Below are positions 15,449 to 16,900 of a stretch of 33,952 bases of DNA, piece after piece. Made by a program: the position numbers and the translations under genes. This DNA is from Coriobacteriaceae bacterium (GTDB lineage Bacteria > Actinomycetota > Coriobacteriia > Coriobacteriales > Eggerthellaceae). Position 1 is the first letter of the stretch. Every line of letters starts with the position of its first letter. Location of the stretch: the NCBI GenBank assembly GCA_015062635.1, contig SUUF01000004.1, forward strand, positions 1 to 33,952. Reading direction: 5' to 3'. Under the pieces are notes generated by a model. That model made no database searches and was not told the origin of the DNA. It worked only from the letters and a program-made list of their open reading frames with translations.

Positions 15449-16900
15449 GTGAACGGTTCTGCTGCCATAGATAGCATGCACGTCGATACGACGGGCATCG
15501 ATGCGCAATTGGCGGTGGTGCTGTCGTATGACGGGTCGTCGTTTTCCGGCTATGCGCGTCAACCGGGGCAGCGTACCGTTCAGGGCAACCTCGAGCAGGC
15601 GTTTTCGCTCGCGTTGCGCCGGCCGGTGGAAGTGGTGTGCGCTGGGCGGACCGATGCCGGCGTGCATGCGCGTGCCCAGGTGGTGAGCTTCCCCATTACG
15701 CGAGATGAGGCTGAAGGGCGCAACCTGTTCAAGCTGAAGCGTTCCTTCCAGGCGCTCACCGACGACGACATCACCATCCAGACGCTTGCGGTGATGCCGC
15801 CTGATTTCTCGGCGCGGTTCTCCGCTATCGAGCGCGAATACCGTTACCTTGTGATGCCGGGCGGGCGCCATCCGCTGTTCCTGCGCGACTGGTGCTGGGA
15901 TGCGCGGCGCGAGCTCGACGTGGACGCCATGAACGAGGCGGCGTCGTACCTGGTGGGCGAGCATGATTTTAAGAGCTTCTGCCTGGCGGCATCGGCCGAG
16001 GGCAAGAACACGGTGCGCACGCTGCGCGAGGTGCGTGTGGTGCCGGTGAACGTGATGGGCGAGGATGCCCTGAGCATCCGCGTGACGGGCACGGCCTTCC
16101 TCCATTCCATGGTGCGCTCCATCGTGGGCACGCTTGTGATGGTGGGCTCGGGGCTGCGCGAGCCCGTGTGGGTGCAGGAGGTGCTGCAGGCGTGCGATAG
16201 GCGTGCGGCGGGCGAGAACGCGCCGGCGTGCGGGCTCGTCTTTTGGCGGGTTTCGTATTGCGGTGGGGTGCCTTGTTATGAGCGTGACGGGGCGTTGGAG
16301 CTTGACAACCTTTCCCGGGGGACCGGGGGAGGGGATGTCATGCTCAAACAGTCCTCGCTTGGTGAAAGCGCCGCCGGCGCTTTCAGTCGCTGCGGAACTG
16401 CGCGTGACATCCCCTCCCCCGGTCCTGGGGGCGAGAACAATGCTGCGAACGATCGGGGCAAAACCGAGATGCCCCAATCCGACTCAGGGATAACGCGTCA
16501 GGATGTGCTGGTGGCTGAGGCTGCCATCGATGTGCTTGAAAAAGGCGAAGAGAGGCGTGGTGAAACGGAGTCTCGTGATGGAACGGTTTCTGATAAGGGG
16601 TTTTCCGAGTCTGTTTTGACTGCGCCGCTGCCAGAAGCGGTAATCGAGGCCGCGAACCGGCCGGGACCGAAGGGCTCGATGCGGGTGAACGAGGTGTCTG
16701 GACCGGCCATGCCGGCGGCGCCGCGCACGCGCAAGATCAAGCCCGCCGACCCGCAGCCGGCTGAAGGCGAGGTTTCCATCAGCTTCGAGGTGCATCGCGA
16801 TTCCGCGGCCACGCGTGCGGCCAAGGCCCAGAAAGCGCAGAAGGCCGAAAAGGGCGGATTCTTCCGCGGCTTGTTTGGAAAGGGTGGAAAGGATGCGTAA
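15449..16900 (+). CDS. truA: tRNA pseudouridine synthase A with about 210-aa non-canonical C-terminal extension
   Basis: TruA motifs YDGSSFSGYARQPGQRTVQGNLEQAF, AGRTDAGVHARAQVVSF, REYRYLV, FLHSMVRSIVGTLVMVG; GTG start; canonical end near FWRVSYCGG. Confidence 0.9.
   Translation: MNGSAAIDSMHVDTTGIDAQLAVVLSYDGSSFSGYARQPGQRTVQGNLEQAFSLALRRPVEVVCAGRTDAGVHARAQVVSFPITRDEAEGRNLFKLKRSFQALTDDDITIQTLAVMPPDFSARFSAIEREYRYLVMPGGRHPLFLRDWCWDARRELDVDAMNEAASYLVGEHDFKSFCLAASAEGKNTVRTLREVRVVPVNVMGEDALSIRVTGTAFLHSMVRSIVGTLVMVGSGLREPVWVQEVLQACDRRAAGENAPACGLVFWRVSYCGGVPCYERDGALELDNLSRGTGGGDVMLKQSSLGESAAGAFSRCGTARDIPSPGPGGENNAANDRGKTEMPQSDSGITRQDVLVAEAAIDVLEKGEERRGETESRDGTVSDKGFSESVLTAPLPEAVIEAANRPGPKGSMRVNEVSGPAMPAAPRTRKIKPADPQPAEGEVSISFEVHRDSAATRAAKAQKAQKAEKGGFFRGLFGKGGKDA
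16314..16431. repeat. 118-bp nested palindromic element inserted in frame in the truA tail region
   Basis: 21-bp perfect inverted arms 16320-16340 / 16405-16425 (GGACCGGGGGAGGGGATGTCA) plus concentric perfect 10-bp stem TGAAAGCGCC-gcc-GGCGCTTTCA at 16363-16385. Confidence 0.85.

Follow-up and report, generated by a model that had tools for sequence, protein, structure and literature searches.

The window, that is, the whole stretch of 33,952 nt that was analysed, carries truA with a hairpin element lodged within its reading frame. The features of the locus are as follows.

15449 to 16900, + strand: truA, encoding a tRNA pseudouridine synthase (PF01416, 9.5e-37) with a long C-terminal tail that the sister species share without the element.
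16314 to 16431, + strand: the complete hairpin element, lying within the truA frame, delimited by its inverted repeat, its folding, a second genomic copy and its relatives.
16320 to 16339, + strand: left outer arm, private to the window copy (direct reading; arm pairing over copies).
16339 to 16355, + strand: left half of the conserved core, CATGCTCAAACAGTCCT, with the loop TCAAA, conserved among the listed copies.
16363 to 16385, + strand: variable apical hairpin with a 10-bp stem and a 3-nt loop (direct reading), which differs between copies and is still paired.
16392 to 16406, + strand: right half of the conserved core, GCGGAACTGCGCGTG, kept across the listed copies.
16406 to 16425, + strand: right outer arm (direct reading; arm pairing over copies).

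The top strand of the element lies in the CATGCTCA... orientation, sense to truA. The inverted repeat that a sequence-only reading had described is real: its arms (16320-16346 and 16399-16425) are 27 nt long and 93% complementary, and direct reading finds both the perfect 21-bp block within them (16320-16340 with 16405-16425) and the concentric perfect 10-bp stem (16363-16372 with 16376-16385, 3-nt loop). Folding of the window hairpin compared with shuffles gave z = -7.1 as DNA and z = -8.3 and -9.0 for the two strands as RNA, with no shuffle folding as well. The same reading had drawn attention to near-identical peptides encoded on both strands, which are indeed as quoted; as a selected feature, however, we reject them. 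The arms are one sequence on opposite strands that happen to match in phase, so that the look-alike peptides are a mechanical outcome of the palindrome and their likeness is no evidence for minus-strand coding.

In both sister species of the genus, TruA carries the same long tail and lacks the element. The window copy is thus, on this comparison of alleles, most simply a lineage-specific in-frame insertion of about 36 codons. It matched no phage or plasmid sequence. The window holds no second copy, as had been noted, and one further copy lies elsewhere in the host genome (contig C41 of G000, 84% identity), between rplW and a phosphofructokinase gene, both named from their translations. The element is not single: one sister species holds 9 matches and the other 10, and in the second many sit at the ends of contigs, probably because assembly broke at the repeat. 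Across the family, 33 of the 140 genomes, from 11 of the 48 genera, contain the core motif ATGCTCARACAGTCCT, while the reversed motif, used as a control on the same 140 genomes, gave no match. It also occurs in several other families of the class Coriobacteriia, and a single core pattern finds 18 copies in one complete genome from a Collinsella-like genus (a name that we infer). We found no description of such repeats in Coriobacteriia in the open-access papers searched, and the hairpin elements are apparently an undescribed family. This family, with elements of about 105-150 bp, is probably old and is widespread in the class. The flanks and element of L240 (G263) are near-identical to those of L047 and L072 (G060 and G059), although these genomes come from different families, a likeness in sequence that suggests horizontal transfer of an ABC-transporter locus together with its hairpin. 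At L049/L073 (G066) a half element directly adjoins a full one, which looks like the product of one element inserting into, or cutting short, the other.

Every copy is built in the same way: the core (CATGCTCARACAGTCCT ... GCGGAACTGCGCGTG) is asymmetric and conserved, the apical hairpin variable, and the outer stem essentially private. Within the core, CATGC[TCARA]CAGTCCT lies opposite GCGG[A]ACTG[C]GCGTG and forms an asymmetric internal loop. The apical hairpin varies in sequence and keeps its pairing, often with the loop CACTG, and the short left flank outside the stem is often TGTCCG, the right one GCTAC or GCCTGC. The outer stem is about 22-24 bp long, a length that is similar over unrelated copies; past about 24 bp, pairing drops to background. 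Pairing between the two arms of a copy is 0.814, against 0.388 (sd 0.013) when arms are re-dealt among 70 copies, while the left arms of different copies are on average only 38% identical. In genomes G137 and G138 a longer unit of about 300 bp is found, with the same outer arms and different inner modules exchanged between them; it occurs at L084-L091, L094 and L095, with eight repeats in G137, and has spread in these genomes with swapped interiors.

TruA is not the only enzyme to carry the element. The RNase R of genome G001 has an in-frame copy within the RNB domain, and in G002 the RNase R gene is split over two contigs where the hairpin lies; the RNase R of the host genome has no copy. In two species, RecQ contains an antisense in-frame copy in its zinc-binding module, with the YFGD motif on one side and CGNC on the other. 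At this spot the solved RecQ 4tmu, when aligned, has four residues separating the stretches that match, and in other species of the genus the loops are short and variable. Further copies are found in the N-terminal stretch of a DEAD-box helicase and at the N-terminal end of a GluQRS-like gene. In two loci of the latter (L045 and L048), the bottom strand of the core carries an ATG with AGGA before it (AGGACTGTTTGAGCATG); this may be the GluQRS-like start codon, in which case the element would supply the translation start. The TruA, RNase R, DEAD-box and RecQ copies are read in different frames or on different strands, and there is therefore no conserved peptide. RNase R, RecQ and TruA are all enzymes open to assay.

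The arms evolve in an unusual manner. Comparison of orthologous sites in the Collinsella-like genus shows similar flanks around hairpin arms that differ between species and stay complementary; the arms usually change faster than the flanks, in mirror image, with site S2 as a case in which arms and flanks are equally conserved. Complementarity has a median of 0.85 within alleles and 0.675 across alleles, both values being blurred by the fixed 40-nt windows, which take in sequence outside the arms. Alleles at one site are linked by mirrored point changes and indels, including mirrored 4-bp indels at sites S2 and S5. Hybrid alleles (L171-173, L233 and L250) combine the left arm of one allele with the right arm of another, and at one orthologous site the whole hairpin interior of L189 is inverted relative to the other species (L168-L190). 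Among near-identical alleles we counted 18 one-sided changes and 5 mirrored ones, the latter against about 0.15 predicted if the arms changed independently. The one-sided differences indicate that arm copying is not immediate, and the lasting mismatches that they leave speak against strong selection at every pair. Published signatures of template switching include arm homogenisation and spacer inversion (PMC8604942; PMC8794818). For this reason template switching is the favoured mechanism, and the mirrored arm differences would then reflect copying of one arm from the other; selection for a functional hairpin could contribute.

One could instead suppose that the core alone is mobile and inserts into pre-existing palindromes, which would thereby become the private arms. 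The G137/G138 units, with their identical outer arms around different inner modules, fit this idea, as does site S3 of the Collinsella-like genus, where the same flanks enclose a largely different hairpin in one of the species. We nevertheless regard it as very unlikely, given that a search of G137/G138 for empty outer palindromes yielded none, that arms of unrelated copies are so alike in length, and that alleles at the same site are related through the mirrored changes described above.

The placement of the copies is biased as well. With home-made gene calls, 34 copies start no more than 60 nt, and often no more than 20 nt, downstream of a stop codon in sense orientation, against 8 in the mirror situation (p = 7e-5, a value that treats loci as independent although some are orthologous). 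This bias may reflect a function at the mRNA 3' end, an insertion preference or tolerance. It is an argument for an interpretation of the family as a functional structured RNA at gene 3' ends, a stabiliser or processing site of mRNA in which selection maintains both pairing and positions, and the conservation of positions across species, and of some sites across genera, points the same way. Against it, copies occur in both orientations and within coding sequence (antisense in the case of RecQ), and selection on single pairs would not readily produce the mirrored indels, the interior inversion or single mirrored changes within long stems. An Rfam search returned no match at the gathering score, with only sub-threshold microRNA models. 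As an account of the family as a whole we therefore consider a functional RNA unlikely. By inspection, the listed copies show no T-run directly after the stem of the kind expected of an intrinsic terminator.

How the copies spread is less directly visible. Recent jumping in the Collinsella-like genus is contradicted by sites that are old and common to species: with a query of joined flanks, five tested sites were occupied wherever both flanks matched. All tested sites there are old and occupied and give no sign of present-day mobility. A search for a mobilising enzyme found none, and no target-site duplication could be read, the empty sites being too diverged for placing junctions. A search for a RAYT/Y1 or other transposase had been suggested as a check, and membership in a REP/REPIN family moved by such an enzyme, with its GTAG-like tetranucleotide beside the hairpin, would account for the GTAGC or GCAGGC that often precedes the stem on the bottom strand (GTAGC is seen by inspection beside the hairpin in many copies, not all) and for the presence of Y1 genes in the genus. 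Yet the examined Y1 genes are flanked by palindromes of their own and not by the Coriobacteriia hairpin, and Y1 genes are not enriched in genomes with the hairpin (19 of 33, compared with 74 of 140 overall). RAYT/REP membership is thus not supported, and we give this origin the least credence of all, with only a slight chance of being correct. As regards those genes themselves, at the Y1/RAYT-like loci L137-L142 (G000, G001 and G002) each is accompanied by its own palindromic set, for example TGACAAATGCTCAGGGCATTTGTCA in L140, so that several REP-type systems with no relation to the Coriobacteriia hairpin coexist in the genus.

We propose the following history, which we consider reasonably probable: the hairpins form an old, widespread family that transposed rarely, then underwent arm copying by template switching and survived at harmless or useful places. 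New copies would arise by rare transposition, perhaps as a folded single strand, driven by a trans-acting enzyme able to recognise the core. After insertion, the hairpin or cruciform would allow replication to switch templates between the arms and so copy a change or small indel from one to the other; the interior would sometimes flip, and the stem would stay paired while its sequence turns over. Copies would persist where they are harmless or mildly useful. A sense-oriented hairpin directly behind a stop codon may stabilise the 3' end of the mRNA, and other copies would be tolerated in frame in protein loops. A bolder version, which we advance as a possibility that is more doubtful than probable, is that these hairpins represent a class of mobile element whose identity lies in the folded core and whose arms are rewritten by hairpin-templated copying, served by a dedicated mover that acts on single strands or cruciforms and also inserts copies in frame into conserved enzymes. 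If true, each copy acquires a private self-complementary stem. Compensatory change normally counts as proof that an RNA or DNA structure is under selection, and the many naturally replicated orthologous sites, with their mirrored indels, hybrids and inversion, make the share due to template switching measurable in bacteria.

The family displays individual features of several known systems. With REP/REPIN sequences it shares an imperfect hairpin with internal loops, many copies that are mostly intergenic and, in part of the copies, a GTAG-like tetranucleotide on one side; it differs in its longer stem and in showing no association with the RAYT genes of the genus, which go with other palindromes. 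Integron attC sites are imperfect palindromes just after stop codons, variable in sequence and conserved in structure, with the terminal core sites RYYYAAC and GTTRRRY. The position after stops is common to both, but conservation in the Coriobacteriia hairpins is central rather than terminal, the copies are single with no cassette arrays, and inspection of the listed copies showed no RYYYAAC / GTTRRRY ends, so that attC membership is not supported.

Closer to the original suggestion of a mobile or MITE-like palindrome tolerated in the TruA tail are the MITEs such as Correia/NEMIS, RUP and ERIC, which are short, non-coding, interspersed inverted repeats that give long hairpin transcripts (PMC2229807). 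The dispersed copies, the presence and absence at truA and the in-frame tolerance in a variable tail uphold that suggestion, and the hairpins are likewise short, interspersed inverted repeats. Membership among the classical MITEs is not supported: the terminal arms are not common to the copies (the average of 38% identity applies here), no transposase was found, and a target-site duplication could not be read. Quasipalindrome correction by template switching offers a second partial parallel, since arm homogenisation and spacer inversion are found likewise at the Coriobacteriia hairpins (PMC8604942; PMC8794818); it is a mutation mechanism and no element family, and in this case it would have operated again and again within a single dispersed family.

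A fitting comparison is with the Rickettsia palindromic elements (RPE), dispersed palindromes of about 105-150 bp that lie in frame within unrelated conserved proteins (PMC2229807, PMC10969869). The analogy, drawn beforehand for TruA alone, is apt in view of the further in-frame copies in RNase R and RecQ: both systems consist of a dispersed palindrome of about 100-150 bp inserted in frame in unrelated proteins. In contrast to RPE, the Coriobacteriia hairpins belong to unrelated bacteria, have arms private to each copy and are read in several frames and both orientations rather than as one conserved peptide; because this last feature fails, we do not file them as RPE, and the likeness drawn here is one of features. 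By analogy, then, the hairpin family works like RPE, and brings RPE-like in-frame palindromic inserts to a lineage for which we found no earlier description in the open-access papers searched.
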